From Vicinamibacteria bacterium (GTDB taxonomy: Bacteria; Acidobacteriota; Vicinamibacteria; Fen-336): 64,000 nucleotides of DNA. The stretch is from contig JAMPXO010000006.1 in assembly GCA_023701125.1 (NCBI GenBank), forward strand, positions 1 to 64,000, written 5' to 3'. The notes under the pieces were generated by a model. It was not told where the DNA came from. It did not search any database and was given only the letters and a program-made list of their open reading frames with translations. This document shows positions 31,190-64,000 of this stretch, one piece after another (the first letter of the stretch is position 1; each line of letters opens with the position of its first letter). Made by a program: the position numbers and the translations under genes.

Positions 31190-31250
31190 GACCGCGGGCA
31201 TTCTAGGCACGCCCGAGAAGGGCAAGCAAACGAACGAGGCCGAAAAAGAC

Positions 31251-31898
31251 ATGTTGCTGAGCTACGCCCTGCTGTTCCTGCTGGCCCAGGCGCCGACCCC
31301 CGCGCCGGCCGCGGCCACGCCCGAACCGACCCCGCGCTCGCTGCCGGCCGGCCCGGTGGTGGTACTCGAGACGTCGATGGGCACGATCAAGATCGGCCTG
31401 CACCAGGACAAGACGCCGCGCACGGTCAAGAACTTCCTGTCCTACGTGCGGATCGGGCACTACGACGGCACGGTCTTCCACCGCGTGATCCCGGGCTTCA
31501 TGGCCCAGGGCGGCGGCTTCCTGCCCGACATGACCGAGCGCGCGGAGACGCTGATGCCGCCGGTCGTCAACGAGGCGCGGCTGAGCGCCGGCGCCGGCCT
31601 GCGCAACTCGCGGGGCACCGTCGCGATGGCCCGCACCAACGAGCCCAACTCGGCGCAGGCCCAGTTCTTCATCAACGTGAAGGACAACCACCGGCTCGAC
31701 TTCGGCATCGGCGGCGCCGGCTACACCGTGTTCGGCGAGGTGCTCGAGGGCATGGACGTCGTGGACAAGATCATGGCCGTGCCGACCACCACCAAGGGCA
31801 TGCACCAGAACGTGCCGCGCACGCCGATCCTGATCACCCGCGCCCGCGAGCTGCCGGCGGCCAAGGCCGCGACTCCGGCGGCCAGCCCGAAGCCCTGA
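31251..31898 (+). CDS. Secreted cyclophilin-type peptidyl-prolyl isomerase
   Basis: The 215-residue product has a signal peptide (MLLSYALLFLLAQAPTPAPAAA) and one cyclophilin domain: VLETSMGTIKIGLHQDKTPRTVKNF, GTVFHRVIPGFMAQGG with the catalytic Arg, GTVAMARTNEPNSAQAQFFIN, and FGEVLEGMDVVDKI. It folds proteins in the periplasm. The insertion FLPDMTERAETLMPPVVNEA is slightly longer than in PpiA. ATG 31251 starts the signal peptide and is preferred over an upstream ATG at 31188, which would overlap the divergent GTPase start. Its TGA overlaps the next gene. Confidence 0.9.
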   Translation: MLLSYALLFLLAQAPTPAPAAATPEPTPRSLPAGPVVVLETSMGTIKIGLHQDKTPRTVKNFLSYVRIGHYDGTVFHRVIPGFMAQGGGFLPDMTERAETLMPPVVNEARLSAGAGLRNSRGTVAMARTNEPNSAQAQFFINVKDNHRLDFGIGGAGYTVFGEVLEGMDVVDKIMAVPTTTKGMHQNVPRTPILITRARELPAAKAATPAASPKP

Positions 31899-48591: not shown

Positions 48592-49191
48592 ATGGCAGTT
48601 CGATTGCGGCGTCGAGGTGGTGATCTGGCTCCCGACCCGGAGTTGTGGGCGGCGTTGCGCCATGGCGACGGCCTGCGCGAGGTCCTCGACGACTTCTACA
48701 CGCGGGTCTACGCGGACCCGCGGCTCGGCCCGTTCTTCCGCTTTGCGACTCGCGAGCGGGCCATCGACAAACAGTTCGCCTTCCTCAAGGAACTCCTGAC
48801 CGGCGAGGAGTGCTATTTCGGCGATCGCCCCTACAACGCGCACCACTGGATGGTGATCTCGGACGAACTGTTCGACCATCGAGAGCAGTTGATGGCCGAT
48901 TGCCTGCGCCGCCACGGCCTCGACGAGGCGCAAGTGGCCCGCTTCCGGCGCATCGACGAGGTGTTCCGCAAGCAGATTGTCAAGTCCGAGCCGAAGCCCA
49001 AGAAGCTCCGCGGGGAGGCGATCCCGCTGACGGGCTTCGGCGACGTCGTGATCGCGGGCGGCACGCTGTGCGATGGCTGCGGGCAGGCCCTGGACGATGG
49101 CTCGGCCGCCCGTTACCACCTCCGCACCGGCCAGACGTACGGGCTCACCTGCTGCGATGGGGCCGAGCCGCGCGGCCTCGAGCGGGCCTAG
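48592..49191 (+). CDS. Truncated hemoglobin with a Cys-rich C-terminal extension
   Basis: The 199-residue protein has a trHb core (residues 14-125): VLDDFYTRVYADPRLGPFF (B-C-CD region), FLKELLTG (E helix), YNAHHWMVISDELFDHREQLM with likely proximal His84 in HxxM, and LRRIDEVFRKQI. Truncated hemoglobins bind oxygen or nitric oxide. The C-terminal 65 residues are extra: GGTLCDGCGQALDDG and TGQTYGLTCCDGAE resemble a zinc-ribbon/knuckle. That tail is not part of the usual fold. Its start ATG lies 81 bases after the kinase gene; its stop overlaps the convergent VOC gene by four bases. Confidence 0.82.
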   Translation: MAVRLRRRGGDLAPDPELWAALRHGDGLREVLDDFYTRVYADPRLGPFFRFATRERAIDKQFAFLKELLTGEECYFGDRPYNAHHWMVISDELFDHREQLMADCLRRHGLDEAQVARFRRIDEVFRKQIVKSEPKPKKLRGEAIPLTGFGDVVIAGGTLCDGCGQALDDGSAARYHLRTGQTYGLTCCDGAEPRGLERA

Positions 49192-49894: not shown

Positions 49895-52315
49895 ATGGTG
49901 TCCGCAGCCCCGGCCTGTTCCACGAGCGGGACCTGGAGTCTCGCTTTTGGGAGGGAGCGGTCCGCCGGGGTTGCGCTCTTCGCCACCCTCGGCTTCGCCC
50001 TGTTCCTGGTCCACTTCGGCGACCACGCCGACGTGCCCGCCCTGGTGTGGACCGGGATTCTGGCCGCCAGCGGCCTGGTGGCTCGACGGGCCGGGCGCCA
50101 CTCCTACGCGGCGCTGGCCGCCGTCGCCAGTTGCCTGCCCGTGCCGCTGACCTGGCTCGTGAGCGGAGCGGAGCGCGCGCCGTGGCTGCCGGTGAACTGG
50201 GCCGTTCTGGCCTGCGCGACCGCCGTGGCGGTGTGGCCGCTGGAGCGGGCCCGAGCCTTTCTGCTGGTCCTGGTCGGTTCGTTCGTCGGCTCGGCCGTCG
50301 TCTTCGGTCAGGCCCGGCTCGCGCTGGTGCCGCTCGCGGTGATGGCCGTCGCCAGCCTGCTGGCACTCGTGCTCGGGGCGGAGCTGTCCGACCTGCAGGC
50401 CGCGGGCAGCGCGGCCGGGGTGCGTTCCCGGCGCGACCTGCACGAGGCGACGGAGCGAGCCGCGGCGAGCGAGGAGTTGTACCGCTCGGTCTTCGAGTCG
50501 GCCCGCGACGCGATCGTGATCAGCGACGCCGAGACCGGCCTCGTCCTGGCGGCGAACGCCCGCGCAGCGGAACTCTGCGGTGACTCGGCCGCCAGTCTCG
50601 TCGGCCTCGACACCGCTCGATTCCTGGTCGGTCCGGAGCTGTCGCTGATGGTCGACCTGCGGGCCAAGGGCTATGCCCAGGACGTCGAGTGCCGCCACCG
50701 CGGCGAGGACGGCCAGGAGCGGCGGCTGGTGATCAACGCCTCGCTGATCCGCTATCAGGGCCGGGAAGCGGTGCTGAGCGTGCTCACGGACGTGACCTCG
50801 CTCCACACCCTGCAGGCCCGCCTGAGTCGCGCGAACGAAGATCTCGAGCGCACCGTGCGGGAACGCACCGCCGAGCTGGAGAGCAGCAGGAACCTGTTTG
50901 CGTCACTGGCGGCCGGCGCGCCAGCCGCCATCATCCGCGCCGATGCCGGCGGGCGCTGGACCTGGGCGAGCACCCGCTGGACCGAGTTGACCGGGGTGAC
51001 CGCCGAGCAGAGCCTTGGCGACGGCTGGCTCGCTGCGCTCGCCCGCGAGGACCAGGAGCTGGTGGCGACGAACTGGGGGCGGGCCGCCCAGGACGGCCGG
51101 TCCTTCCGCGCCGAGTGCCGGCTCGCCCGACCACGGTCGTCCGGCCCGGCGTGGGTGACCGTTTCGGCCGTCCCCGATCGCGACCGGGATGGACAGGTGC
51201 TCCAGTACGTCGGCACGGTGACCGACATCTCGGACCTGATGCGGGGCGTCGAGCTGACGCGGAGCCTCGCCGAGACGCTGCGCGCGAGTTCGCGCCAGTG
51301 GCGGAAGATCTTCGACGCCGTGCCCGACGTCCTGGTCTCCGTCGACGCCGACGGCCGCCTGCTCAAGCTCAATCAGGCCGCCGCCGACCTCGCCGCCCTG
51401 CCGCTCACCGCCGCCCTCGGACAGCCGCTCTCCAGCCTGCGGCCCGTGGAACTCTGGGGGCGGGTGCACGACCTGGCCGTCGAGGCCCTCCGGTGCGCAG
51501 ACGCCGTTGGGCGTCGCTGGGTGCCGGGGCCCGGCCGTGCCTGGAGCCTGCTGGCGACACCGGTCATCGGCGCGCAGCCCGCACAGGCCGTCGTGGTGGC
51601 CCGCGACGTGAGTGCTGAAGCCGCCCTGGAGTCGGCACTGCGCCGCCGCGCGATGGACGAGCTGGCCGCCGAGCTGCTCGCGGGCCTCGCCCACGAGTTG
51701 CGCAACCCGTTGTTCGCGATCTCGGCCATTACCGATGCGCTGGCGGCCGAACAGCCGGGCCCGGCGTGGGAGCACCTGCGACTGGAGACCGCGCGGCTGT
51801 CTGCGCTGATCGAGCGCCTGCTCCAGCAGGCGGATGTCCGCCCGGGCGCGGAACTCGAGGTCGACCTGCGGCATCTCGTCGCCGACTGTCTCGAGGGCCT
51901 GCGACGCTCGTTCCCGGAGATCTCCTTCGAAGTGCGTTTCGAACCGCCCGATGCGACCTGCGGGCTGGTCGTCGAGGCCCACGCGCTGGAGACCGCGGTC
52001 GCGGCACTCGTCCGCAACGCCTGCCAGCACTCCGCGCCGGGTGGACAGGTCGAGGTGCTCGCCCGGCTGGACGCTGCGGAGGGTGGCGGGCGCTGGAGCA
52101 TCGGCGTGCACGACCAGGGGCCCGGCTTCTCGCCGCGGCTGCTCGAGCGGGGACCACGTCCCTTCTACACGACTCGTCGCGCTGCCGTCGGCCTGGGTTT
52201 GACCCAGGCGCTGCAGATCGCCGAGCACCTGGGTGGCTCGCTCGACCTCTCCAACCCCGTCGCCGGCGGCGCCCTCGCCGTGCTTCGCTTCCGCGATCGA
52301 AACGAGACCCGGTGA
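49895..52315 (+). CDS. Membrane-bound PAS sensor histidine kinase
   Basis: The 806-residue kinase has an N-terminal membrane region of six helices (residues about 20-155, LFATLGFALFLVHFG through LLALVLGAELS), a coiled linker, and three PAS domains (about 185-300, 315-445 and 465-580). The HisKA box is GLAHELRNPLFAISAITDALAAEQ, then a HATPase with LVRNACQHSAPGG, DQGPGFSPRL and LGLTQALQIA. The N-box and F-box are complete but the G2 box is shorter than usual. ATG 49895 is chosen over TTG 49877. It is divergent from the VOC gene and followed by the REC-kinase. Confidence 0.9.
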   Translation: MVSAAPACSTSGTWSLAFGRERSAGVALFATLGFALFLVHFGDHADVPALVWTGILAASGLVARRAGRHSYAALAAVASCLPVPLTWLVSGAERAPWLPVNWAVLACATAVAVWPLERARAFLLVLVGSFVGSAVVFGQARLALVPLAVMAVASLLALVLGAELSDLQAAGSAAGVRSRRDLHEATERAAASEELYRSVFESARDAIVISDAETGLVLAANARAAELCGDSAASLVGLDTARFLVGPELSLMVDLRAKGYAQDVECRHRGEDGQERRLVINASLIRYQGREAVLSVLTDVTSLHTLQARLSRANEDLERTVRERTAELESSRNLFASLAAGAPAAIIRADAGGRWTWASTRWTELTGVTAEQSLGDGWLAALAREDQELVATNWGRAAQDGRSFRAECRLARPRSSGPAWVTVSAVPDRDRDGQVLQYVGTVTDISDLMRGVELTRSLAETLRASSRQWRKIFDAVPDVLVSVDADGRLLKLNQAAADLAALPLTAALGQPLSSLRPVELWGRVHDLAVEALRCADAVGRRWVPGPGRAWSLLATPVIGAQPAQAVVVARDVSAEAALESALRRRAMDELAAELLAGLAHELRNPLFAISAITDALAAEQPGPAWEHLRLETARLSALIERLLQQADVRPGAELEVDLRHLVADCLEGLRRSFPEISFEVRFEPPDATCGLVVEAHALETAVAALVRNACQHSAPGGQVEVLARLDAAEGGGRWSIGVHDQGPGFSPRLLERGPRPFYTTRRAAVGLGLTQALQIAEHLGGSLDLSNPVAGGALAVLRFRDRNETR

Positions 52316-52427
52316 CGACCAGGGCCCGGCGTCGCCCGCGCCTGATCCTCGAGTCACACCGGTCCCCGCTTGTGGCATCGTTATCCGCAAGTTGGTCGAC
52401 AACGCCTTCAAACACCCCGGTTCCGCG

Positions 52428-55367
52428 GTGAAGCCCCGCCTGCTGGTCGTCGAGGACGAGGCGATCGTGGGCCTGGAACTCCGCCTGCGGCTCGAGGACC
52501 TGGGCCACGAAGTCGTCGCCGTCTGCCGCTCGGCGGCTGCGGCGCGCGAGGTCCTGCACGGGCAGGTCGTCGACCTCGTCCTGCTCGACATTCGGCTGGA
52601 GGGCGACGAGGACGGGATAGCGCTCGGAGTCGAGCTGAGGGAGCGCGACGTCCCGGTGGTGTTCCTCACCGCTTTCAGTGACCGTGACACGGTGATCCGG
52701 GCGGGTGCGGCCGAGCCCTACGGCTATCTCGTCAAGCCCTTCTCGCCGCGCATGCTCGAGGCCACCCTGGCCACCGCCCTCCAGCGCATCCGGCTGGAGC
52801 GGGCTCGAGCGGATGCCGAGGCGGCGCTGCGTCGCAGCGAGGCCGAGCTGAGGGCGACCACCAAACGCCTGACGGAGATCCTGCGTGACTCGCCTGCGGG
52901 AATCTACGTGTGCACGGCGACGGTTCCACCGCGGATCACGTTTACGAATGCGCGCTTCGACGAGTTGCTCGGGCGACAGGGCGTCGATTTCCCGTCGTGG
53001 CTGGCGGCGATCCACCCCGACGACAGAGAGCCCCCGGCCGCCGTCCGCTCCCGGCTCGAGCGGGAGGGGAGCGTCACGCTCGAGTACCGGCTGATCCAGG
53101 CAGACGGGTCCTGGCGCTGGCTGCGTGACCACGCCATCCTCGATCGCGGCAGCGCGGGCGAGTGCGCGGAGATCTCGGGCTTCGTGATCGATATCACCGC
53201 TCAGAAGGAGGCGGAGCAGGCCCAGCGCGAGAGCGAGGATCGGCTGCGCGAGATCGCGGAGCACGTGAACGCGGTGCTCTGGATCGCAGCCCCGGACTTC
53301 TCGGAGATCTTTTTCGTGAACCGCGCTTTCGAAGACGTCTGGGGTCGCAGCCGCGCGGAGGCGTATGCCGACCCGCAGGTCTGGGCCGATGCCGTCCACC
53401 CCGACGACCGCGCGGCGGTGCTGGCGACGACCGCGCAGAGCCCCCACGAGCACGAGTACGTGCACCGGCTGCTGCGGCCGGGCGGAGACGTGCGCTGGGT
53501 CAACGTGCGGGTGTTCCCGATCCGCGACAGCGTGGGCCGGACCTGCCGCGTCGCCGGCCTCGCCGAGGACGTGACCGCGGCGCGCGAGGTGGAGTTCAGC
53601 GTCGCCCGTATCCGCCGCAGCCTCGAGGACGCGCAACGCATCGCGCGGATTGGAAACTGGGACTGGGACATCGCCACCAACCGCCTGTGGTGGTCGGAGG
53701 AGGTCTATCGCATCTTCGGGATGGCCGCCGGCGAGGGCATGTCCTACGAGAGGTTCCTCGCCGCCGTCCACCCGCACGACCGCACGCAGGTGGCCGCGGC
53801 CGTCAACCAGTCCCACGCGTCGGGACAGCCGTACTCGATCGTCCACCGTGTCGTCCAGCCGGGCGGCACGACGCGCGTGGTCGAGGAGCGCGGAGAGGTC
53901 GTCTTCGATGGCCAGGGGCACCCCGAGCGCATGCTGGGCACGGTCCAGGACATCACCGAGGCCCAGCGCGCCGAGGAGACCCTGCGGCTGCTCTCGCGAG
54001 CCGTGGCGCAGACGGCCGAGCACGTCTTCATCACCGACGACCAGGGCCGCTTCCTGTTCGCCAACCCGGCCTTCGAGAAGCTGTCGGGCTGGCGCCTCGA
54101 GGAACTGCGGGACTGCACGCCGCGCGTGCTGAAATCCGACCGCCACTCGCCCGACTTCTACCAGCACATGTGGGAGTGCCTGCGCCGCGGCGACGTCTTT
54201 CAGGCCACCTTCGAGAACCGGGCCCGGGACGGGCGCATCTACTTCGAGGAGAAGGCGATCACGCCGATGCGGGACGCCGACGGGCGGATCACCCACTTCG
54301 TGTCGACCGGGCGCGACGTGACCGAGAAGCTGATGCTGGAGCGGGCCCAGGAGGAGTTCACCCGCCAGATCCGCCGCTCGGCCGAGGACTGGGCCCGCAC
54401 GTTCGACGCCGTGGGCTTTCCGATGCTGGTGGTCGACGCCAGCGGGTACGCGCAGAGCGTCAACCGCCCGGCCCGCGAGCAACTGGGCTGGGATTCGGAT
54501 TCGTCCGCCGCAGTCCGGCTCGACGCGCTCCCCGGGGAGCCGTGGCGGACGCTCGTGGGGCTGGCGCCGGACAGCGGGCCTGTCCAGGTTCGCGACGAGG
54601 CGGGGCGCACGTGGGAGGTGGAGGCTTTCGCGGCCGCGTCGTCGGTGGTGCTGACGGCGCGCGACGTATCCGAAATGCTGGGATTGCAGGAGTCGGTGCA
54701 CCGCCTGGAGACGGTGTCGGTGATGGGGCGACTCGTGGCCGGCGTGGCCCACGAGGTCCGCAATCCGTTGTTCGCGATCTCGGCCGCCCTCGACGCCTTC
54801 GAGGCCGAGTTCGGTGCCGAGCCGATGCAGGGCTACAGCCGGGTGCTGCGCCAGGAGGTGGATCGCCTCAGCGAGCTGATGCGCGACCTGCTCGAGTTCG
54901 GGCGCCCGACCCATGCCGCGAAGCAGCGCCGGCCGCTTCAGCCAGTGATCGACCGGGCAGTCCGGGCCTGTTCCCGCGAGGCGACCCGCCGCGGCGTCGA
55001 GATCCGGCGTCGGGCACCCGAGGCGGCGATCGAGCTGGACATGGACTTCGGCCGCCTCGTCCAGGTCTTCCAGAACGTGATCGAGAACGCGGTCCAGCAT
55101 GCGCCCGGCGGGAGCCACGTCTGCGTGCAGGTCGCGCGCCGCGACGACAACGTCGAGGTCGAGGTGCACGATCGTGGCCCGGGCTTCGGGGGGGACGTGT
55201 CACGGTTGTTCGAGCCCTTCTTCACGCGTCGTCGCGGGGGCACCGGGCTCGGGCTCTCGATCGTCCAGCGCATCGTCGAACAGCACGGCGGCCGCGTCAC
55301 GCTGGAGAACGCCCCCGATGGTGGCGGCCTGGTGCGGTTGCACCTGCCGCTCGCGGAGAGCCGATGA
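52428..55367 (+). CDS. Hybrid histidine kinase with N-terminal receiver and several PAS domains
   Basis: The 979-residue protein starts at GTG 52428 with a receiver domain (RLLVVEDEAIVGLELRLRLE, LVLLDIRLEG with the phospho-Asp, VFLTAF, LVKPFSPRM), then four to five PAS domains (EILRDSPAGIYVC, REIAEHVNAVLWIAA, RIGNWDWDIATNRLWW, AEHVFITDDQGRFLF, FDAVGFPMLVVDASG). The transmitter has HisKA GVAHEVRNPLFAISAALDAFEAEFG and HATPase NVIENAVQHAPGGS, DRGPGFGGDV and GTGLGLSIVQRI. The H-box is almost the same as in the upstream kinase, suggesting shared partners. Its stop overlaps the NtrC-type regulator start (ATGA), so this kinase is the natural phosphodonor for it. Confidence 0.9.
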   Translation: MKPRLLVVEDEAIVGLELRLRLEDLGHEVVAVCRSAAAAREVLHGQVVDLVLLDIRLEGDEDGIALGVELRERDVPVVFLTAFSDRDTVIRAGAAEPYGYLVKPFSPRMLEATLATALQRIRLERARADAEAALRRSEAELRATTKRLTEILRDSPAGIYVCTATVPPRITFTNARFDELLGRQGVDFPSWLAAIHPDDREPPAAVRSRLEREGSVTLEYRLIQADGSWRWLRDHAILDRGSAGECAEISGFVIDITAQKEAEQAQRESEDRLREIAEHVNAVLWIAAPDFSEIFFVNRAFEDVWGRSRAEAYADPQVWADAVHPDDRAAVLATTAQSPHEHEYVHRLLRPGGDVRWVNVRVFPIRDSVGRTCRVAGLAEDVTAAREVEFSVARIRRSLEDAQRIARIGNWDWDIATNRLWWSEEVYRIFGMAAGEGMSYERFLAAVHPHDRTQVAAAVNQSHASGQPYSIVHRVVQPGGTTRVVEERGEVVFDGQGHPERMLGTVQDITEAQRAEETLRLLSRAVAQTAEHVFITDDQGRFLFANPAFEKLSGWRLEELRDCTPRVLKSDRHSPDFYQHMWECLRRGDVFQATFENRARDGRIYFEEKAITPMRDADGRITHFVSTGRDVTEKLMLERAQEEFTRQIRRSAEDWARTFDAVGFPMLVVDASGYAQSVNRPAREQLGWDSDSSAAVRLDALPGEPWRTLVGLAPDSGPVQVRDEAGRTWEVEAFAAASSVVLTARDVSEMLGLQESVHRLETVSVMGRLVAGVAHEVRNPLFAISAALDAFEAEFGAEPMQGYSRVLRQEVDRLSELMRDLLEFGRPTHAAKQRRPLQPVIDRAVRACSREATRRGVEIRRRAPEAAIELDMDFGRLVQVFQNVIENAVQHAPGGSHVCVQVARRDDNVEVEVHDRGPGFGGDVSRLFEPFFTRRRGGTGLGLSIVQRIVEQHGGRVTLENAPDGGGLVRLHLPLAESR

Positions 55368-56743
55368 CGGCTTCGACCGAGAACGCCGGACGCCAGCAGT
55401 TGTTGCTGGTGGAAGACGAGGAGCCGATCCGCTTCTCGCTCAATCGCTTCTTCTCCAACAAGGGCTACACGGTGACGGAGGCCACTGGCCCGGCCGAGGC
55501 GTTCGACAGCTTCCGCTCGTCGCGCCCGGACTGCGTGATCCTCGACTACCACTTCCCGGACTCGGAGGGGCTCTCGCTCCTGCGCACGCTGCGCGGGCTC
55601 GACGCCACGGTCCCGATCGTGATGCTGACCGGCCACGGCACGATCGACCTCGCGGTGAGCGCGATCAAGGAGGGGGCAGAGCAGTTCTTCACCAAGCCGG
55701 TCGAGCTGCCGGCGCTGCTGCTGGTGGTCGAACGGTTGATCGAGAGCCGCCGCGCGCAGCGCTCGAAGGTGGCGGGCAAGAGCCGCGAGGCGCGCGAGGG
55801 CGTGGACCCCTTCGTCGGCGACAGTGCGGCGATCCGCGACCTGGCGTCGCGCGCCCGCCGCGTCGCGGTCTCCCAGAGCCCCGTGCTGATCCTCGGCGAG
55901 ACCGGGACCGGCAAGGGGGTGCTGGCGCGTTGGCTGCACCAGAACGGCCCCCGAGCCGACGAACCGTTCGTCGACCTCAACTGTGCCGGGCTCAGCCGCG
56001 ATTTCCTCGAGACGGAACTCTTCGGGCACGAGAAGGGCGCGTTCACCGGCGCCGTCGCCAACAAGCAGGGACTGCTCGAGATCGCCCACCGCGGCAGCGT
56101 GTTCCTGGACGAGATCGGGGACCTGCCCGCCGAGGTCCAGCCCAAGCTGCTCAAGGTCCTCGAGGAGCGGCGCTTCCGGCGTCTCGGGGACGTCCGCGAT
56201 CGGATGGTGGACGTGCGGCTGATCGCGGCCACCCATCGCGACCTCGAAGGCCTGATCGCCGACGGGCGTTTCCGGGCCGACCTTCTCTACCGAGTCAACA
56301 CGCTGCCACTGCGGGTGCCTCCCTTGCGCGAGCGCGGCGACGACGTCGTCGCCCTCGCCCGTGACCTGCTCACCCGGATCGCTGGCGAGGTCGGCCGTCC
56401 GGGCCTGTCGATCTCGTCCGCCGCCGTCGTCGCGATTCGCTCCCATCGCTGGCCGGGCAACGTGCGCGAGCTTCGCAACTGCCTGGAGCGCGCGGCGTTG
56501 TTCGCCGAGTCCCCGACGCTGCGGGCCGAGGACCTGTTCCCGCCACGGGTGGAGGTCCCGGGCCCGCCCTCGGCCCCGGTGCCGCGCACCCTGGTCGAGG
56601 CGGAGCGAGAGCACATCCGTGCGGTCCTGGTCCAGGCCGGCGGTGACGCCGTCGCCGCAGCCCGGGTTCTTGGGCTGACCAAGAGCGCCTTCTACCGTCG
56701 GCTGGCCAAGCACGGCATCCTGCCCCCGACCCAGAGGGCCTGA
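55364..56743 (+). CDS. NtrC-family sigma-54-dependent response regulator
   Basis: The 459-residue activator has a receiver (residues 10-125, phospho-Asp61 in VILDYHF, Lys111 in FFTKPVE), a AAA+ domain with Walker A GETGTGKG (178-185), the sigma-54-contact loop GAFTGA (225-230), Walker B VFLDEIGD (246-253) and RFRADLLYRVNTLPLRVPPLRERGDD, and a C-terminal Fis-type helix-turn-helix (AEREHIRAVLVQAGGDAVAAARVLGLTKSAFYRRLAKHG). All parts for activation of sigma-54 RNA polymerase are present. It overlaps the hybrid kinase (ATGA). A perfect sigma-54 promoter lies 104 bases after its stop, so it very likely controls the following operon. Confidence 0.95.
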   Translation: MTASTENAGRQQLLLVEDEEPIRFSLNRFFSNKGYTVTEATGPAEAFDSFRSSRPDCVILDYHFPDSEGLSLLRTLRGLDATVPIVMLTGHGTIDLAVSAIKEGAEQFFTKPVELPALLLVVERLIESRRAQRSKVAGKSREAREGVDPFVGDSAAIRDLASRARRVAVSQSPVLILGETGTGKGVLARWLHQNGPRADEPFVDLNCAGLSRDFLETELFGHEKGAFTGAVANKQGLLEIAHRGSVFLDEIGDLPAEVQPKLLKVLEERRFRRLGDVRDRMVDVRLIAATHRDLEGLIADGRFRADLLYRVNTLPLRVPPLRERGDDVVALARDLLTRIAGEVGRPGLSISSAAVVAIRSHRWPGNVRELRNCLERAALFAESPTLRAEDLFPPRVEVPGPPSAPVPRTLVEAEREHIRAVLVQAGGDAVAAARVLGLTKSAFYRRLAKHGILPPTQRA

Positions 56744-56764
56744 CCCTCTCGCCCAGAAATGCGA

Positions 56765-56805
56765 CTGTCGCTCCCGCAAGCGGGAACGGGAGCCTGTCGT
56801 CCCGC
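56765..56805 (+). promoter_or_regulatory. Candidate activator binding sites (direct repeats and palindrome)
   Basis: CTGTCGCTCCCGC at 56765-56777 recurs as CTGTCGTCCCGC at 56794-56805, 29 bases apart, and TCCCGC-AA-GCGGGA at 56772-56785 is a perfect palindrome. They lie 45-80 bases upstream of the -24 box, the usual place for NtrC-type enhancer sites. Binding is inference. Confidence 0.4.
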
Positions 56806-56846
56806 GCGAGGCCAACGATCTCGCCCGCTCGCGAGTGACCAGCGTC

Positions 56847-56861
56847 TGGCACATGCCTTGC
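56847..56861 (+). promoter_or_regulatory. Sigma-54 (-24/-12) promoter
   Basis: TGGCAC at 56847-56852, five bases ATGCC, and TTGC at 56858-56861 give an exact match to the sigma-54 consensus, with the invariant GG and GC spaced ten bases apart. Transcription should start near 56873, one base before ATG 56874. It follows the gene for a sigma-54 activator, strengthening the call. Confidence 0.8.
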
Positions 56862-56873
56862 GAGAGGATTGGC

Positions 56874-57248
56874 ATGCACCGCCTGCTGATCGTCGACGAC
56901 GAGGAGTCGATCGTGTTCGCGATGACGCGCTACTTCAAGGCGCGCGGGTTCGCCGTCGACGCCGCTCGCGAGATGGAAGAGGCGCAGGCGCTGCTGGTCA
57001 ACTACCAGTACGCGGCCGTGATCGTCGACCTGCGCCTGACGGGCGTGCACGGTGCCGAGGGCCTCGACATCATCGACCACATCCGCCAGCGCTGCCCGGC
57101 CACCCGCACGGTGCTGCTCACTGCCTACGGCTCGCCCGAACTCGAGGCCGAGGCCAAGGCGCGCGGCGTCGACGCGGTGCTGCGCAAGCCGCAGGCGCTG
57201 CCCGACCTCGCGCAACTGGTGCTGAGCCTGGTGGAAGAGGCGGAGTGA
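56874..57248 (+). CDS. Stand-alone receiver-domain protein (CheY-like)
   Basis: The 124-residue protein is a single receiver domain: HRLLIVDDEESIVFAMTRYFKARG (acid pocket DDE), VIVDLRLTGVHG with the phospho-Asp, VLLTAYGSPE and VLRKPQALP with the conserved Lys. No output domain is attached. ATG 56874 is chosen over an ATG at 56853 that lies inside the promoter. It is the first gene behind the sigma-54 promoter, and its end overlaps the EAL gene (GTGA). Confidence 0.88.
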   Translation: MHRLLIVDDEESIVFAMTRYFKARGFAVDAAREMEEAQALLVNYQYAAVIVDLRLTGVHGAEGLDIIDHIRQRCPATRTVLLTAYGSPELEAEAKARGVDAVLRKPQALPDLAQLVLSLVEEAE

Positions 57249-58006
57249 GCCTGCTCGCGCGGCTGCTCGAGCCGGAGGCGCTGAGCCTGGTGTTCCAGCC
57301 GGTGTTCGAGGCCGCCGACGACGGTGGCGGCCATGCGGTGCACTCCTTCGAGGCGCTGACCCGGGGGCCCGTCGGCACCAACGCCTTTGCGCCCAACGTG
57401 CTGTTCGAGTACGCGCGGCGCAAGGGCCACGAGGCCACGCTGGACCGGATCTGCCTCGAGAACCTGCTGCGCGCCATGACGTTGTTGCCCGGCCGGGTCC
57501 GCTGCTCGTTCAACGTGCACGCGTCGACCCTGCAGCGTGACGCCGGCTTCGCGGCCCACGTGCTCGAGCGCGCGCACACACACGGGCTCGAACCGTCGCG
57601 GCTCACGATCGAGATCGTCGAGCACGCTCCGGACTGGAGCGGTCGCGGTTTCCTGCGTGCCCTGGGCCAGTTGCGCGACGGCGGCATGCGGATCGCCCTC
57701 GACGACATCGGGCTCGGCCAGTCCAACTACCGGATGATCCTCGACTGTCGCCCGGACTACTTCAAGATCGACCGCTACGTCGTTCAAGGCTGTCCGACGG
57801 ACACGGGACGACAGGCGATCATCGATTCGCTCGTCGTTCTGGCCCGCAAGTTCGGGGCGCGCGTGGTCGCCGAGGGCATCGAGTCGCGCGCCGAGCTGAC
57901 GGCCGTGCGGTTGCTGGGCGTGGACCTGCTCCAGGGCTTCTTGCTCTCTGCCCCGCTGCCCGCTACCGATTGTTCCGCCCTGTTGAGCCCGGCGCCCGGC
58001 CGGTGA
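57245..58006 (+). CDS. EAL-domain cyclic-di-GMP phosphodiesterase
   Basis: The 253-residue protein is a single EAL domain with all key motifs: FEALTRGP (the EAL motif with catalytic Glu), SFNVHAST (Asn ligand), IEIVEHAP (Glu), RIALDDIGLG (DDxG metal site), DYFKIDRYVV (Lys), VAEGIES (Glu) and LLQGF (Gln). The full set suggests active hydrolysis of c-di-GMP to pGpG. It starts at GTG 57245 (GTGA overlap) and ends by overlapping the next kinase, so the three are translated together. No GGDEF partner is in the window. Confidence 0.92.
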   Translation: MSLLARLLEPEALSLVFQPVFEAADDGGGHAVHSFEALTRGPVGTNAFAPNVLFEYARRKGHEATLDRICLENLLRAMTLLPGRVRCSFNVHASTLQRDAGFAAHVLERAHTHGLEPSRLTIEIVEHAPDWSGRGFLRALGQLRDGGMRIALDDIGLGQSNYRMILDCRPDYFKIDRYVVQGCPTDTGRQAIIDSLVVLARKFGARVVAEGIESRAELTAVRLLGVDLLQGFLLSAPLPATDCSALLSPAPGR

Positions 58007-59793
58007 GTGCGATCGGCCCGCGTGAGCTGTGCCCCGCGCCGCGGGTGCTGTGGTACTCGGCCGACGCCGAGGTCCGCCAGGACCTGCGGGTGACGCTCGG
58101 GGCGGTGGGCTTCCAGGCGGCCGAGGTGGAGCGGCGCGACCTGCTGGCGACGGCGGTGGGCGCGCTGCGGCCCGACCTGCTGCTGCTGGACTTGCGGCGC
58201 GCGGAGCCGGCACTGCTAGGCGCGGTCGAGGCGCTCGCGGCAGCGCGGCCCCAGGGCACGCCGCGTCTGGCGGGCCTGGTCGGCGAGGCGGGCCCGGCGC
58301 CGGCCTGGCTCGAGTCGCGGTGCGCGTGGGCCAGCCCGGAACCCGCTCGTGAGGAGTGGCTGCGGCTGTTGTATGACGCCGCCGTCGCCCGGCGCCGGGC
58401 GGCGTTCTTCGAGGCGCTCGCCGCGACCGCCCCGACGCCGCTGGCCGCGCTCGCGTCCGCGCCGGACTACCGCGTGGCGTGGGCCAACGCGGCGTTCGCG
58501 GCGCTGATCGGCGAGCGCCTTCCGCCGGTCGGCGCGGCGGCCGGGCTCTGGTTCGACGGCCTGCCCGACCCGCACCGGCTGGTGCTGAATGCCGGACCGG
58601 GGCAGGGTAGCGCCGTGCCCGCCCAGTTGCGGCCGTTCGCGCCCGGCGGCGTGCGGCCGAGCGGGTGGTTGCTCGCGCTTTCCCCCGCGGGCCCGGCGAG
58701 TCCGAACGCCGGCCACCAGATGCGCGACGAAAACGAGCAGCGTCGCCGCTTCACGGAGACCCTGCTCGACCAACTGACGGCTGGCGTCGTCACCGCCGAC
58801 CTGGGGGCGCGGGTGACGTTCGCGAACCGGATGGCGACGGAGACCCTGGGCCTGGAAGCGGCGAACTGCCTGGGCCGGGATCTTGTCGAGATGTTCGGTG
58901 ACGTGCCGGCCCTGCGTCGGGGCGTCGCAGCGCTGGCGAAGGGTGGCGAGGAGCGAGTCGACCTGGTGCACCCGCGGGCGGACGGCCGCCGCGCGGAGCT
59001 CGGCATGACGTTGATCCGCTCCCGCGAGGGCGCACCCGCCGACATGGCCTTCGTCGCGCTCTTCCGCGATCTCGGCGCGCAGCGCCAGTTCGACCGCGAG
59101 TTGCGCCGGGTGGAGCGGCTCTCGGCCATCGGCTCGATGGTGGCGGGCTTCGCGCACGAGCTGCGGAACCCGCTGGCGGGCATCCAGGCGCTGGCCGAGG
59201 CGCTGCTCGCGGAGTCCGAGACCGGCGACCCGCGCCGCGAGTACGGCACCCGCATCCTCGCGCTCCTGTCCCGCGTCGAGCGCTTCGTCAAGGAAGCCCT
59301 CCAGTTCGGCGAGCCGCAACCCCCCGACCGCCGACGCCAGGACCCGCATCAGATCCTGGAGCGCGTGCTCGGTGTCCTGACCCCGCGCTGGGGACGGCGC
59401 GGCAGGCCGCCGGCGACGTCCTGCGCCGACGCACCCGCGGTGCTCGTCGACGGCGACCAGGTCGGCGAGTGCCTGCTGGCACTGATCGAGAACGCGCTCG
59501 ACGCGGCCGGCGACGCCAGCCGCGTCCAGGTCCGGCTGTCGACGGCGGAGGGCCTGCCGGGGCCAGAGCCGCGGATGGTGCGCTTCGACGTCTGCGACCA
59601 GGGTCCCGGCATAGCGCCCGGCGACCTGTCGCGGATCTTCGACCCCTTCTTCACGACCAAGCCCAAGGGCACGGGTCTGGGCCTGGCCCTCGCGCAAACC
59701 CTGGTCCGGGAGAACGGCGGGCGGCTGCTGGTGCGCTCCACGCCGGGTCTCGAGACGGTGTTCAGTCTCCTGCTGCCGGAGGCCCCCGAGTGA
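58003..59793 (+). CDS. Histidine kinase with an N-terminal pseudo-receiver
   Basis: The 596-residue cytosolic protein begins with a receiver-like domain (RVLWYSADAEVRQDLRVTLGAVG, LLLLDLRRAE) that lacks the acid pocket DD and the conserved Lys, so it cannot be phosphorylated normally. One or two PAS domains follow (about residues 140-235 and 245-365, LLDQLTAGVVTADLGARVTFAN), then HisKA GFAHELRNPLAGIQALAEALLAE and HATPase LIENALDAAGD, DQGPGIAPGD and GTGLGLALAQTL. GTG 58003 and its stop both overlap neighbours (GTGA twice), fixing it in the EAL operon. The pseudo-receiver may be a docking domain. Confidence 0.88.
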   Translation: MSAIGPRELCPAPRVLWYSADAEVRQDLRVTLGAVGFQAAEVERRDLLATAVGALRPDLLLLDLRRAEPALLGAVEALAAARPQGTPRLAGLVGEAGPAPAWLESRCAWASPEPAREEWLRLLYDAAVARRRAAFFEALAATAPTPLAALASAPDYRVAWANAAFAALIGERLPPVGAAAGLWFDGLPDPHRLVLNAGPGQGSAVPAQLRPFAPGGVRPSGWLLALSPAGPASPNAGHQMRDENEQRRRFTETLLDQLTAGVVTADLGARVTFANRMATETLGLEAANCLGRDLVEMFGDVPALRRGVAALAKGGEERVDLVHPRADGRRAELGMTLIRSREGAPADMAFVALFRDLGAQRQFDRELRRVERLSAIGSMVAGFAHELRNPLAGIQALAEALLAESETGDPRREYGTRILALLSRVERFVKEALQFGEPQPPDRRRQDPHQILERVLGVLTPRWGRRGRPPATSCADAPAVLVDGDQVGECLLALIENALDAAGDASRVQVRLSTAEGLPGPEPRMVRFDVCDQGPGIAPGDLSRIFDPFFTTKPKGTGLGLALAQTLVRENGGRLLVRSTPGLETVFSLLLPEAPE

Positions 59794-60878
59794 CGCACCG
59801 GATCCTGATGGTCGACGACGAGGAGGACCTCGTGTGGTCGACCGCGCGGCAGATGGCCCGCGAGCGCCCCGATATCGCTTTCGAGGGTCTGTCCGACCCG
59901 CGCGAGGCGCTGACCCGCATCCGGGCCGTGCCGCCCGACCTGCTGATCACGGACGTCCGCATGCCGCACATCAGCGGGATCGAGCTGTTGCTGGCGGCGC
60001 GCGAGGTGGTGGCCAGCCTGCCGGTGATCGTGGTCACCGCCTACGGCAGTGCCCAGGTCCGCGAGGACGTGCGGCGCAACCCGGCGGTCGAGTACATCGA
60101 GAAGCCGTTCGCCTTCCCGTCGCTGGTGGCCGCCATCGACCGCGCGCTGGCCTCGGCCACCGGCTTCTCGGGCTCGATCTCGCTGCCGATGCTGCCGGAC
60201 CTGATCCAGATCTACGCGCTGTCGATGGCCACCGGCGCCCTTCGCATCACTCGCGCCGGCCGCGCCGGGGCGATCTGGTTCGAGCGTGGCGCGATCGTCG
60301 ACGCGAGCTGCGGGGAAATCCGCGGCGACGAGGCCGTCTACGAGCTGCTCGCCTGGGAGGGCGGCGTCTTCAACATGGAGGTCGGAGCCGCCGCTGTCCA
60401 GGCGACGATCAGTGCCCACTGGCAGGAACTGCTGGTCGAGGGCTGCCGCCGCCTCGACGAGGCCGGTCGCGACCGCGCGAGCGAGGACGCGCTGGCGGCG
60501 CTGTGCGACCCGGCGGCGGAGCTCGACCCGCGACACGCGCAGGCCCTGACGACCGCCGTCCGCGAGGGCGGCGCGTTCCAGGTCTTCCGCGTCGGCGGGC
60601 GGGCGATCCCCGTCAGCGGCTGGGCCGTGCCCGAGGAACTGGGCGCGCAGGTGCTGGAGCTGATCGACGTCGCGCAGCGCATCGCGGGCGGCGGGGCCGT
60701 CTGCCTGGAAGTGGCCACGGAAGCGATGGGACTGTGCGCCCTGTGGGACGCCGACGGCGAGCGCTGCCTCGGCATCGCCGAGCCGCTGGCCAGTCGGACC
60801 GACGGCTCACGCTTCCGCGCAGCCGTCCTGCGCCTGCGCGAGGACGTGCTGTCTCGAGGAGACGAGGGGCCATCGTGA
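59790..60878 (+). CDS. Receiver plus DUF4388 (PATAN-like) response regulator
   Basis: The 362-residue protein has a receiver (residues 3-120: ILMVDDEEDLVW, LLITDVRMPHISG, VIVVTAYGSAQ, VEYIEKPFAF) followed by a DUF4388 domain (about 125-215: GSISLPMLPDLIQIYALSMATGALRITRAGRAGAIWFERGAIVDA and GDEAVYELLAWEGGVFNMEV). DUF4388/PATAN domains occur in motility and phototaxis regulators of cyanobacteria and delta-proteobacteria. A C-terminal part (about 140 residues, ALTTAVREGGAFQVFRVGG) could hold a roadblock-like or other small fold. It is the likely target of the preceding kinase, with which it overlaps (GTGA). Confidence 0.88.
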   Translation: MTHRILMVDDEEDLVWSTARQMARERPDIAFEGLSDPREALTRIRAVPPDLLITDVRMPHISGIELLLAAREVVASLPVIVVTAYGSAQVREDVRRNPAVEYIEKPFAFPSLVAAIDRALASATGFSGSISLPMLPDLIQIYALSMATGALRITRAGRAGAIWFERGAIVDASCGEIRGDEAVYELLAWEGGVFNMEVGAAAVQATISAHWQELLVEGCRRLDEAGRDRASEDALAALCDPAAELDPRHAQALTTAVREGGAFQVFRVGGRAIPVSGWAVPEELGAQVLELIDVAQRIAGGGAVCLEVATEAMGLCALWDADGERCLGIAEPLASRTDGSRFRAAVLRLREDVLSRGDEGPS

Positions 60879-60900
60879 ACCACAACCGGGAGGAGAGGGC

Positions 60901-61305
60901 GTGACCATCGAGGAAGCGTGCCGGCAGGTCGTCGAGCGGGTGGAGGGCGCCGTGGCCTGCGGCGTCGTCGACCTCGAGAACGGGATACTGCTCGGCATCC
61001 ACAACGCGTCGAACTACCCGCAGACGCTGAACGAGGTCGTGGCCGCCGCGACCATGGACCTGTTCCGTGGCCCCAACGTGGCGCGCATCGAGCAGATGGT
61101 CCGCGCCCATCGCGGCGTGCCCGAGACCGGCGACCGCTACTTCCAGGAAATCCAGATCACCTCGCGGCACAACTTCCACTTCGCCAAGACCCTGTGTGGT
61201 GCCCGCGCCGTGATCATGCTGGTCACCCGCAAGACCACAAACATCGGCATGGGCTGGGCGCAGCTCAAGTCGGCGATCCCCGTGGTCGAGCCGCTGCTGT
61301 CCTGA
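60901..61305 (+). CDS. Roadblock/LC7-like protein, copy 1
   Basis: The 134-residue protein, starting at GTG 60901, has the alpha-beta-beta-alpha-beta-beta-beta-alpha order of roadblock/LC7 proteins: VERVEGAVACGVVDLENGILLG, LNEVVAAATMDLFRG, NFHFAKTLCGARAVIMLVTRKTTNIGMGWAQLK. It is plainly homologous to the next gene product (ACGVVD/AVGFVD, VVAAATMDLFRGPNV/LVAAATGDIFQGQNV). Roadblock proteins such as MglB activate or scaffold MglA-type GTPases, one of which is encoded two genes later. Assignment rests on fold pattern and context. Confidence 0.7.
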   Translation: MTIEEACRQVVERVEGAVACGVVDLENGILLGIHNASNYPQTLNEVVAAATMDLFRGPNVARIEQMVRAHRGVPETGDRYFQEIQITSRHNFHFAKTLCGARAVIMLVTRKTTNIGMGWAQLKSAIPVVEPLLS

Positions 61306-61348
61306 GGCCGACCGACCCACGCGACAAGACCCAAGGAGAGTGAGAGAG

Positions 61349-61753
61349 ATGAGCCTCGACAACGAGCTGGCCAGCGTGCAGAAGCAGGTCCCGGAGTGCG
61401 TCGCCGTGGGCTTCGTGGACATGAGGAGCGGCATGCTGCTCGGCGTGCGCACCGTCGACAGCCACCCGCAGGAGGTGCTGGACCTGGTGGCCGCCGCGAC
61501 CGGCGACATCTTCCAGGGCCAGAACGTCTCCGCGATCGAGAAGATGTTCAAGGCCTCGCGCGGCGTCAAGGACGACGGCCACCACTACTTCCAGGAGATC
61601 ATCATCCTGTCCGACAACCTGATCCACGTCTTCCAGCGCACCAAGCGCAACGAGGACATGGTGATGGTCACGGTCTGTCGCTCCTCCGCGAACCTCGGCA
61701 TGGTGCTCGCGAAGTCGCGGGCGGGCCTGCCGGCGGTCGAGGCCGCGGCCTAG
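61349..61753 (+). CDS. Roadblock/LC7-like protein, copy 2
   Basis: The 134-residue protein is a diverged duplicate of the previous one: VPECVAVGFVDMRSGMLLG, VLDLVAAATGDIFQGQNVSAIEKMFKASRGV, YFQEIIILSDNLIHVFQRTKRNEDMVMVTVCRSSANLGMVLAKSR. ATG 61349 follows AAGGAG at 61333-61338 and is preferred over a GTG nine bases before it. Two different roadblock-like proteins could form a heterodimer on the GTPase. The GTPase gene begins 64 bases on. Confidence 0.7.
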   Translation: MSLDNELASVQKQVPECVAVGFVDMRSGMLLGVRTVDSHPQEVLDLVAAATGDIFQGQNVSAIEKMFKASRGVKDDGHHYFQEIIILSDNLIHVFQRTKRNEDMVMVTVCRSSANLGMVLAKSRAGLPAVEAAA

Positions 61754-61817
61754 AGCGGGAGCGCCGGGGTGCGCGGCGGGCAGTCGCTCGCCGCCACCCC
61801 GCATCCGAGTCGCCAAC

Positions 61818-63326
61818 TTGCCGGCCTTCGACGAGCAGCAGCAGCGACTGGTCGTGCGCATCGTTTACGACGGCCCCGCCACGGCCGGCAAGACGACCAA
61901 CCTCGCCCAGCTCTGCGGGATCGTCACGCCCCGTCGCCGCGGGGAGTTGCGCTCGCAGGGAGAGCGCGCCGGTCGCACGTTGTTCTTCGACTGGCTGCAG
62001 ATCGAGGGCGGCCTCGTCGACGGTCTGCCGCTGCGCTGCCAGTTGTTGAGCGTGCCCGGTCAGGCGGTGCTGGCGCGACGCCGGCAGCACGTCCTGCGCC
62101 TGGCCGACGCGGTCGTGTTCGTGTGCGATAGCCGTGAGTCGGGCGTCGACATCGCGCGGCGCATGCTGACGTCGCTGCTCGAGGGCGCGCGCTGCCCGCT
62201 GGTGATCCAGGCCAACAAGCAGGACCTGCCGGGCGCGCTCTCCCCGGAGCAACTCGCCTCAGCCCTCGGCCTCGAGCCGGGTGTGCGCGTGATACCGGCC
62301 CGCGCCGATCGGGGCCAGGGCGTGAAGGAGACGCTCGTGCTCGCGATCCGGGCGGCGACGGACACCGCGCTCGACGCCCTGCGCCAATCGGGCCTCGCGG
62401 GTTTCGACCGGGACGTGATGACGCCGGAGCGCTTGCACGCGAGGATGCAGGCGGCCGAGCGCGACGAGGCGCCGTCCTCCGTGGCCGAACAGGTCGCCCG
62501 CGCGCTCGGTTTGTCGGCGCCCGCGGCCACGCGCCGGCCCGCGCTGCCAACCGCGGCGGCCCCGCCCGGCTGCGTGTGGCCCGAGTCCGGGCGTGGCGCG
62601 CTGCGGCTTGCGCAGAAGCTGCCCTGGTCGCCGGTCGACGGCCCGCCCGGAACGTTCACCTATCAGGTCGGCGACCTGCATCTCGAGACCTCGCACCGGC
62701 GCCACCACCCGTCGCTCGCGACGGCCCGGCTCGCGCTGCACGATCTCGCCCGGCGCAAGGCGGCGCTCGGCCCGCTGTTGCCGTCGGGGACCGTGTTGTG
62801 CGCCCAGCCGGACCCCGCCGGAGGCGCCTGGCTGTGGACGGTCCGCCCCCAGCTCCCGACGCTCGGCTCCTGGATGGAGAGCGCCGCAGTTGCCGGCGAC
62901 GAGGCGGAGCTGGCGCGCGCGCTGGCCGCCTTCGGCGACGCGGTCTTCCAGTCGGTGGACCATGCCTGGCGCGGTGCGCCCGGCGTGGAGGTGAGCCCGT
63001 CAAGTTTCGGGCTCGATGGCCAGCGCGTGGTCTGCCTGCACGAGGGCCGCGACGCCGAAGGACCGCTTCCCGGGCCGGGCCCGGCGGTGCTGCGCGCGCT
63101 GGACCAGTACGCGGCCTTTCCGCAGGCCGCCCGGCGATACGTCGGCGTCCTCGACGGCGCCTTCGCGTCGCTCGGCCTGATCGCCGAGCCGCGGGCTCGC
63201 CAGGAGCTGCGTGATTCGCTGGCCTCGGCGCAGCCCGCCACGGCACTCGCGCGGCGGGTCCGCGCGCGGCTCGTGGCGCACCTCGATGACCGCGCGGGGC
63301 TCGCCGCGTCGGCCGGGGAGGAGTGA
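61818..63326 (+). CDS. MglA-like GTPase with a C-terminal degenerate kinase-like region
   Basis: The 502-residue protein has an N-terminal MglA-class GTPase (residues 10-190): P-loop GPATAGKT (19-26), RTLFFDWLQIE, SVPGQ (78-82) and NKQD (133-136). It differs from the other MglA in the window by a different P-loop body (ATAG versus GLCG). Residues about 195-240 are a linker, and the last 260 residues hold a second domain: ALHDLARRKAALGPLLPSGTVLCAQPDPAGGAWLWTV, VSPSSFGLDGQRVVCLHEG in place of a kinase catalytic loop and DFG, then helices. I read this as a dead protein-kinase-like fold. No ATG or GTG fits; TTG 61818 is the likely start. Confidence 0.78.
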   Translation: MPAFDEQQQRLVVRIVYDGPATAGKTTNLAQLCGIVTPRRRGELRSQGERAGRTLFFDWLQIEGGLVDGLPLRCQLLSVPGQAVLARRRQHVLRLADAVVFVCDSRESGVDIARRMLTSLLEGARCPLVIQANKQDLPGALSPEQLASALGLEPGVRVIPARADRGQGVKETLVLAIRAATDTALDALRQSGLAGFDRDVMTPERLHARMQAAERDEAPSSVAEQVARALGLSAPAATRRPALPTAAAPPGCVWPESGRGALRLAQKLPWSPVDGPPGTFTYQVGDLHLETSHRRHHPSLATARLALHDLARRKAALGPLLPSGTVLCAQPDPAGGAWLWTVRPQLPTLGSWMESAAVAGDEAELARALAAFGDAVFQSVDHAWRGAPGVEVSPSSFGLDGQRVVCLHEGRDAEGPLPGPGPAVLRALDQYAAFPQAARRYVGVLDGAFASLGLIAEPRARQELRDSLASAQPATALARRVRARLVAHLDDRAGLAASAGEE

Positions 63327-64000
63327 GTGTCCGCGACCTTCACGGTCCACGGGGGAGCGTTACACGGCCCGGAAGGGTTCGCCCTGCGCGGTCTCAGCTT
63401 CGAGCTGGCGGCGGGGACCGTCACCGCAGTGCTCGGCCCCGCAGGCACAGGCAAGAGCCTGCTGCTGCGGGCGCTGGCCGGGGAGCTGCCTGCGAGCTGC
63501 TCGCGCCTCGGCGGCTGGCGTTTTCGCGGCCTCCCGCTGACTTCGCCGGCAGCAGGCGTGGTCTTCGTCGCGCAACGTCCCCGGGAGCGGCGGGCGGGCG
63601 CAGCCACCACGCTCGGCGAGGCCGAGACCCGGGCGGACGTGTTGCTGCTCGACGAGCCGGGCACCCGCGAAGGGGGCGAGCTGCACGCGCCGCTGTCGGC
63701 AGCGCTCCGCGGCCGGGCCGGGCAAGGACTCTCCACCGTGCTGGTCACCCACGATCTCGGCTTTGCGCGCGCGGTCAGCGACCGCGTGCTGATGCTCTGC
63801 GCGGGCCAGCTCCACGTCGCGACCACGGTCAGCGGCTTCTTCGACTCTCCCGCAGATCCGCTCGTCGCCCGCTTCGTGCAGCAGGGTAACTGTTGGCCGC
63901 CGCCACCCGCTCCCGCTTTGCCCACTCACTTCCGCTGGGTGCTGCCCGGGCAGTTGGGCGGCATGGGACGGCCGGGGTTGCTGGGCGACCAGCAACTGGA
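63327..64000 (+). CDS. Minimal ABC-type ATPase, C-terminal end outside window
   Basis: From GTG 63327 the frame stays open to the right edge (224 codons seen). It shows Walker A GPAGTGKS (about residues 35-42), a Q-loop VFVAQRPRE, Walker B ADVLLLDEPGT and H-loop VLVTHDLGFARAVSDRVLMLCAGQ. Between Q-loop and Walker B only about 20 residues remain and no LSGGQ signature is present, so the helical subdomain is lost. After the ATPase, starting near 63927, the sequence HFRWVLPGQLGGMGRPGLLGD resembles the start of dual-specificity phosphatase-like proteins. Its start lies one base past the GTPase stop. Confidence 0.65.
   Translation, partial: MSATFTVHGGALHGPEGFALRGLSFELAAGTVTAVLGPAGTGKSLLLRALAGELPASCSRLGGWRFRGLPLTSPAAGVVFVAQRPRERRAGAATTLGEAETRADVLLLDEPGTREGGELHAPLSAALRGRAGQGLSTVLVTHDLGFARAVSDRVLMLCAGQLHVATTVSGFFDSPADPLVARFVQQGNCWPPPPAPALPTHFRWVLPGQLGGMGRPGLLGDQQL

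Follow-up and report, generated by a model that had tools for sequence, protein, structure and literature searches.

A candidate two-tier signalling operon joining two-component, cyclic di-GMP and Ras-like GTPase proteins in a Vicinamibacteria genome

What is the purpose of a run of bacterial genes that sets receivers, an EAL protein, two roadblock proteins and an MglA-type GTPase side by side, and is it a single unit? The question is raised by the right-hand end of a 64-kb stretch of DNA (the window; positions 1 to 64,000 of contig JAMPXO010000006.1, assembly GCA_023701125.1, Vicinamibacteria bacterium), in which all named signalling genes are co-directional on the + strand from 52233 past the window end. 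Our reading, to which we give a probability of roughly 0.5, is that they form a two-tier, horizontally transmitted signalling operon that includes a GTPase-pseudokinase and whose output is probably pili or another polar or surface machine. The features are listed below with their coordinates and strand.

52233–55367, + strand: HK1, hybrid histidine kinase (REC-PASx4-HisKA-HATPase; Pfam); exact start uncertain (52233–52467)
55364–56743, + strand: NtrC-type sigma-54 activator (REC-AAA+-Fis HTH; PF00158 1e-62, REC, HTH_8)
56770–56793, no strand: inverted repeat GCTCCCG-N10-CGGGAGC, inner part TCCCGC-AA-GCGGGA
56847–56861, + strand: sigma-54 type -24/-12 promoter element TGGCACatgccTTGC, TGGCAC-N5-TTGC
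56874–57248, + strand: stand-alone receiver, REC (PF00072 1e-17)
57245–58006, + strand: predicted stand-alone EAL cyclic di-GMP (c-di-GMP) phosphodiesterase (PF00563 1e-44)
58003–59793, + strand: HK2, histidine kinase (unassigned N-terminus, PAS, HisKA, HATPase; Pfam)
59790–60878, + strand: REC-DUF4388 (PATAN) response regulator (PF14332 2e-18, PF00072 2e-18)
60901–61305, + strand: ROB1, roadblock protein, 134 aa (AlphaFold2 model and Foldseek)
61349–61753, + strand: ROB2, roadblock protein, 134 aa (identity to ROB1, orthologues)
61818–62534, + strand: MglA-type GTPase domain, N-terminal part of a 502-aa protein (phmmer to PDB MglA)
62535–63326, + strand: kinase-like C-terminal domain (probable pseudokinase) of the same 502-aa protein
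63327–64000 in the window, + strand: ABC (ATP-binding cassette)-like ATPase half of an ABC-tyrosine phosphatase fusion (ABC-PTP), whose gene ends at contig position 64400

The order of these genes recurs in relatives. In another family of the phylum (L066, minus strand) the run consists of HK1, the activator, REC, EAL, HK2, a second activator, a REC-DUF4388-roadblock fusion, ROB1, ROB2, the GTPase with kinase-like domain and ABC-PTP. L067 has HK1, REC, EAL, HK2, REC-DUF4388, ROB1, ROB2 and ABC-PTP with no GTPase between, and L047, of the same order as the window, has HK2, DUF4388, ROB1, ROB2 and the GTPase start, where its contig ends; REC and EAL are missing upstream of HK2 in this locus. A locus from Myxococcales UBA1660 (L010) combines a kinase, a DUF4388-ROB1 fusion, ROB2, the GTPase, ABC-PTP and two extra genes. 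Of the proteins compared across genomes, ROB2 shows the highest conservation (74–78% identity in L010, L047, L066 and L067), HK2 is 45–50% identical in L066, L067 and L047, an HK1 homologue occupies the matching place in L066 and L067, and an activator orthologue with 49% identity sits 5' of REC-EAL in L066. A parallel set, made up of REC-DUF4388, small roadblock-like proteins, a GTPase with a degenerate kinase-like domain, HK2 and a sigma-54 activator, is found in Labilithrix and a related Myxococcales genome (L009, L011, L013), with an additional stand-alone DUF4388-like gene in L009.

The original prediction, made from the letters of this DNA, had described a cassette on one strand running from the lone receiver to the window end, with GTGA overlaps between the first genes, and had called for a check of neighbour order. 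All of its named genes are present on the + strand in one run (open reading frame calls, Pfam), and the GTGA overlaps are real at 57245, 58003 and 59790; after 60878 they give way to gaps of 22, 43 and 64 bp. The order is complete in L066 and kept without the GTPase in L067, so the genes are not rarely kept together, though modules are also used separately. One conserved cassette was thus rightly proposed; its extent was drawn too narrowly, as by sequence comparison the upstream HK1 and NtrC-type activator (52233–56743) are part of the conserved unit, and its island-like, patchy distribution had been missed. The ‘pseudo-receiver kinase’ is a HisKA and HATPase kinase as claimed, with the pseudo-receiver label attached to an N-terminus that has no Pfam match. 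An ARAGORN call of a tRNA-Glu inside the HK2 gene (58686–58765, - strand) has no Rfam match and is treated as false.

The -24/-12 element, described before as perfect, is the single occurrence of TGGCAC-N5-TTGC in the window, and the matching gap 5' of REC contains TGGCACCGCTTTTGC in L066 and TGGCACGGACAATGC in L067, two distant relatives. Shuffling of the intergenic gap (130 bp in the window) gives P = 6e-4 for the window, 5e-4 for L066 and 2e-4 for L067. With rpoN present in the genome (PF04552 9e-65) and an NtrC-type activator adjoining, the proposal of sigma-54 control is supported. The predicted sigma-54 start, placed 12 nt past the -12 GC, falls at ~56873, and since this is 1–2 bases 5' of the REC start codon in the window (56874) and in L067 (13722), the prediction implies that both messages are almost leaderless or that the true start differs from it; the leader from the predicted start in L066 would be ~235 nt. 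The inverted repeat at 56770–56793, which may serve as an activator site or end transcription of the activator gene, was not found in the relatives.

The lone receiver retains its DD, D, T and K residues in three orthologues, and the EAL protein retains E-x-L-x-R, N, E, DD, K, E and Q in the window, L066 and L067; because these active and catalytic residues are conserved in all three orthologues, both proteins look active. Against PDB EAL enzymes the EAL protein gives E 4e-20 and was aligned to MucR and BlrP1, and PvrR is among the sub-cutoff NCBIfam matches. The premise that such a protein would lower c-di-GMP is consistent with its intact catalytic residues. The receiver-EAL pair resembles REC-EAL response regulators (PvrR, RocR) in coupling a receiver to EAL; in the cassette these are two separate, translationally coupled proteins.

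Neither 134-aa roadblock protein matches a Pfam family, and PDB profile searches with them returned nothing firm; the fold search alone succeeded. The AlphaFold2 model of ROB1 (predicted local distance difference test, pLDDT, 86.8) has as its best Foldseek matches M. xanthus and T. thermophilus MglB and other roadblock structures (E ~2e-7, TM ~0.7). The alpha-beta-beta-alpha-beta-beta-beta-alpha fold is found in the ROB1 model and can be extended to ROB2 by its 39% identity to ROB1. The modelled fold of ROB1 thereby supports the prediction of two roadblock-like proteins, and a published survey too has roadblock members that the Pfam Robl_LC7 model misses (PMC4316618). In L010 (439 aa) and L066 (395 aa) the REC-DUF4388 protein and a roadblock domain form a single chain.

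The GTPase gene (61818–63326) has a TTG start, backed by the L066 and L010 orthologues. Residues 10–175 match PDB MglA structures (phmmer; T. thermophilus and M. xanthus on top) with E-values of 1e-24 to 4e-21, the next match being at 9e-7. This upholds the MglA kinship claimed before; the second, kinase-like domain in the 502-aa protein had been missed. ROB2 adjoins the gene and ROB1 is next, within the distance of no more than four genes from an MglB/roadblock homologue that marks MglA-family neighbourhoods (PMC4316618). In a tree of GTPase domains that compares the cassette type with local MglA paralogues, it forms a single clade (support 100/100) apart from all MglA paralogues sampled from its own family. 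Members are the window, L066, L010, Labilithrix and other Myxococcales, G014 and Thiotrichaceae; a long-branch warning inside the clade makes its internal order unreadable. A canonical pair, mglA (197 aa) and mglB (165 aa), lies elsewhere in the same genome (L006:1398–2507; G000:C30). Because of this pair and the separate clade, an MglA-like polarity function is not simply transferable to the cassette GTPase. At 29723–31252 (- strand) of the window, outside the variable block described below, another MglA-like GTPase (509 aa) is encoded, which has a long C-terminal extension; this region is collinear in the same genus.

The C-terminal part of the 502-aa protein (residues ~240–502) has no family name, and a PDB sequence profile search with it found no kinase. 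Its AlphaFold2 model is confident (pLDDT 86.8, predicted TM-score 0.82). Kinases are its best Foldseek matches, among them APH(3'), maltokinase, choline kinase and protein kinases as well as two pseudokinases, PAN3 and MLKL; E is ~1e-3 and TM only 0.3–0.43. The domain of L066, L010, L070, L071 and L072 contains an LKT lysine, LD-[VI]-HPSN and then [LI]DDD, which follows 17–18 residues past the aspartate in L066 and L010 and slightly farther in L070–L072. Such a spacing is that between the catalytic loop and the DFG aspartate of protein kinases. The window counterparts are LET, VEVSPSS and LHEG, so that the catalytic positions read E, E, S and H/E vs K, D, N and D in these five relatives. The kinase-like domain, judged from its motifs, is intact-looking in relatives and degenerate in the window, and because of the residues lost against the intact relatives, the window domain is called a probable pseudokinase, its kinase fold being suggested by the model. 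In L070–L072 the kinase-like domain is a separate gene adjoining ROB1. A metallophosphoesterase gene adjoins the kinase-like gene or the GTPase in L071 (11949–12695), L072 (11135–11884) and L010 (11984–12727), coming after the kinase-like gene in L071 and L072, and a divergent kinase-like copy is fused to metallophosphoesterase in L015 (8389–9999).

The last gene, described earlier as a minimal ABC ATPase, is instead a 357-aa fusion cut by the window edge (contig C55, 63327–64400), in which an ABC-like ATPase is followed by a Cys-based tyrosine/dual-specificity phosphatase (PF22785 9e-20, PF22784 7e-17). The phosphatase half has the H-C-x5-R loop (HCHAGLGR) and the general acid D in PDMG, conserved in L066–L068 and L015. 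The ABC half has Walker A (GPAGTGKS), Walker B (LLLDEP) and the H-loop (VTHD) and lacks the LSGGQ signature and most of its domain; no permease gene adjoins. The fusion is conserved in L010, L066, L067, L068 and L015, and a plasmid search with it gave, in the best places, only ABC transporter ATPases, none covering 80%. L068 (8925–14812) has ROB2 and ABC-PTP near a TPR-repeat Ser/Thr protein kinase and lacks the other cassette genes. A 105-aa free-standing protein (contig C55, 64394–64711; L005:4394–4711), which resembles the dimerisation domain of glutamyl-tRNA reductase (PF00745, 1.6e-7), overlaps the ABC-PTP gene end.

These parts suggest the following scheme. In the first tier, PAS-rich HK1 (52233) would phosphorylate the NtrC-type activator (55364), which would fire sigma-54 polymerase at 56847 so that the second-tier proteins are made. 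In the second tier, HK2 would phosphorylate the lone receiver and the REC-PATAN protein. The phosphorylated receiver may gate its translationally coupled EAL partner and so lower c-di-GMP, as a split version of a REC-EAL regulator, and REC-PATAN may act on the ROB1/ROB2 pair, a step suggested by the REC-DUF4388-roadblock fusions in L010 and L066. ROB1 and ROB2, in the presumed roles of GTPase-activating protein or guanine nucleotide exchange factor, would set the nucleotide state of the MglA-type GTPase, which would pass the signal through its C-terminal pseudokinase and ABC-PTP (onward or for reversal); the target would probably be type IV pili or some other machine at the pole or surface. 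That pili, polarity or surface behaviour would be affected is plausible. There are 11 PilB/PilT/T2SE-type ATPase matches in the genome, and cyanobacterial PATAN-REC proteins have the PilB motor as a binding partner (Han 2022, Jakob 2020; cited in PMC10519157 and PMC9090330), and because of both, control of pili or surface behaviour is a reasonable first guess. A bolder form, which we consider doubtful as a whole, is a G-protein-kinase relay. In it an MglA-subfamily GTPase would carry a protein-kinase-like domain that is active in some lineages and a pseudokinase in the window; a receiver complex of PATAN and roadblock proteins would control this fusion, an ABC-domain tyrosine phosphatase would work against it, and the whole would spread as a mobile sigma-54 cassette linking two-component, c-di-GMP and Ras-like signalling.

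Several observations weigh against the two-tier operon with a surface output. The L067 cassette does without the GTPase, and ROB2 with ABC-PTP (L068, L069) and ROB1 with the kinase-like gene (L070–L072) also occur apart, so the parts need not form a single linear pathway. The pairing of histidine kinases and receivers is ambiguous, L066 having its second activator beside HK2. The low TM values and the profile search that returned no kinase count against the kinase-like fold, the predicted start leaves almost no leader in the window, the genome has its canonical mglBA pair at another site, and no pili, gliding or flagella gene adjoins the cassette in the loci read.

The separate mglBA pair bears on the alternative that survives best, that the output is not motility or polarity. 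The cassette would then be a free-standing stress or developmental unit with conservon-like logic, and metabolism or gene expression would be the target of its GTPase-pseudokinase and phosphatase. Besides the mglBA pair, the clade of their own formed by the cassette GTPases agrees with it, as do the globin and PAS kinases within the variable block described below and the precedent of conservons, which bring a histidine kinase, a roadblock protein and a GTPase together and influence development and gene expression (PMC4316618, PMC13343842). The conserved core, however, holds a PATAN regulator and an EAL protein, both tied to surface motility elsewhere, and we regard the alternative as possible, at clearly less than even odds.

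We consider it improbable that there are two adjacent operons, one sigma-54-driven (REC-EAL-HK2-DUF4388) and the other, roadblock-GTPase-ABC/PTP, transcribed separately. The replacement of overlaps by gaps after 60878 would fit such a division, as would ROB2 and ABC/PTP alone in L068 and L069, ROB1 with the kinase-like gene in L070–L072, and L047 without REC-EAL upstream of HK2; but neither an intrinsic terminator on the + strand nor a sigma-70-like promoter was found in 56600–64000, DUF4388 is fused to ROB1 in L010 and L066, and L066, L067 and the window have the order in common.

Among known systems the Myxococcus xanthus MglA/MglB/RomR-RomX polarity module shares with the cassette an MglA-family Ras-like GTPase (E ~1e-21 to its structures), the roadblock partner fold and receiver-domain regulators. 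The cassette differs in bringing a GTPase-kinase-like fusion, two roadblocks, a PATAN regulator, EAL, a phosphatase and sigma-54 control into one operon, and in its GTPase, which belongs to a separate clade in a genome with mglBA elsewhere. PATAN (DUF4388) genes beside MglA and MglB homologues are already on record (Makarova 2006; Wuichet and Sogaard-Andersen 2014, PMC4316618), and that part is not new; the composition of those neighbourhoods is variable, with the PATAN link found only ‘occasionally’ (PMC4316618), whereas the cassette keeps kinases, EAL, two roadblocks and ABC/PTP in a fixed order, and relatives have PATAN-roadblock fusions. Actinobacterial conservons (CvnA-D; PMC13343842) likewise unite a histidine kinase, a roadblock protein and an MglA-type GTPase in an operon; membership was rejected, since the annotated neighbours include nothing CvnC-like, the cassette has receivers and EAL, and the phylum is different. 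Cyanobacterial PixE, PixG and PilG (PMC10519157, PMC9090330) also combine PATAN with a receiver and are linked to pili; unlike them, the cassette protein has its receiver at the N-terminus, is coupled to roadblock proteins and has no pilus genes adjoining.

Roco/LRRK proteins carry a GTPase and a kinase on one chain. The cassette protein resembles them in joining a Ras-like GTPase to a kinase-like domain, but its GTPase is MglA-type, no LRR or COR was seen, and the kinase is degenerate in the window. A literature search, largely without subscription journals, found no publication on this order of genes, on a fusion of GTPase and kinase-like domain or on roadblock proteins associated with ABC/PTP. 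New here are the kinase-like domain on the GTPase, the ABC-PTP fusion and the REC-DUF4388-ROB1 fusion of the relatives. A single transferable fixed-order operon would unite four bacterial signalling languages: phosphorelay, sigma-54 control, c-di-GMP, and a Ras-like GTPase that has roadblock partners. The PATAN-roadblock fusions make the connection from PATAN to roadblock/MglA directly testable. If the scheme is true, the union of a Ras-like GTPase and a kinase or pseudokinase on one chain, with a tyrosine phosphatase as partner, would be a design more familiar from eukaryotes.

ROB2 occurs in 2/193 genomes of the class sample and 8/396 of the phylum sample; the orders of G503 (0/18) and G201 (0/7) yield no further genome with it. 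Between ~30 and 46.25 kb the window is collinear with both same-genus genomes (L095, L096), which resume at 64.7 kb and 67.26 kb (85–89% identity), so that ~18.4 kb (46.26–64.70 kb) is missing at the matching site of both; beyond it, 64700–65428 (0.7 kb) is inverted in them and 65430–67263 (beta-propeller gene) is also missing. As the block is absent from both same-genus genomes and from nearly all relatives, horizontal gain is the simplest reading and horizontal spread is probable, with repeated loss as a possible alternative account; no integrase or repeat boundary was seen at the block. Mis-binning as the cause of the patchiness was rejected, the contig being correctly placed because its flanks are collinear with the two same-genus genomes. 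That the neighbourhood arose by chance or assembly error and is no functional unit is very unlikely indeed, for although patchiness and a 254-contig assembly would allow it, the order shared across unrelated families (L066, L067) contradicts it and the contig flanks match the same genus.

A role in anti-phage defence was also considered and rejected, PADLOC giving only generic ABC, receiver and sigma-54 activator matches. Beyond the cassette, two kinases (one of them PAS/HWE), a bacterial-type globin and a glyoxalase-like gene are found in the variable block. The globin gene (PF01152) lies at 48592–49191 of the window and possibly provides an oxygen or nitric oxide link for the kinases.

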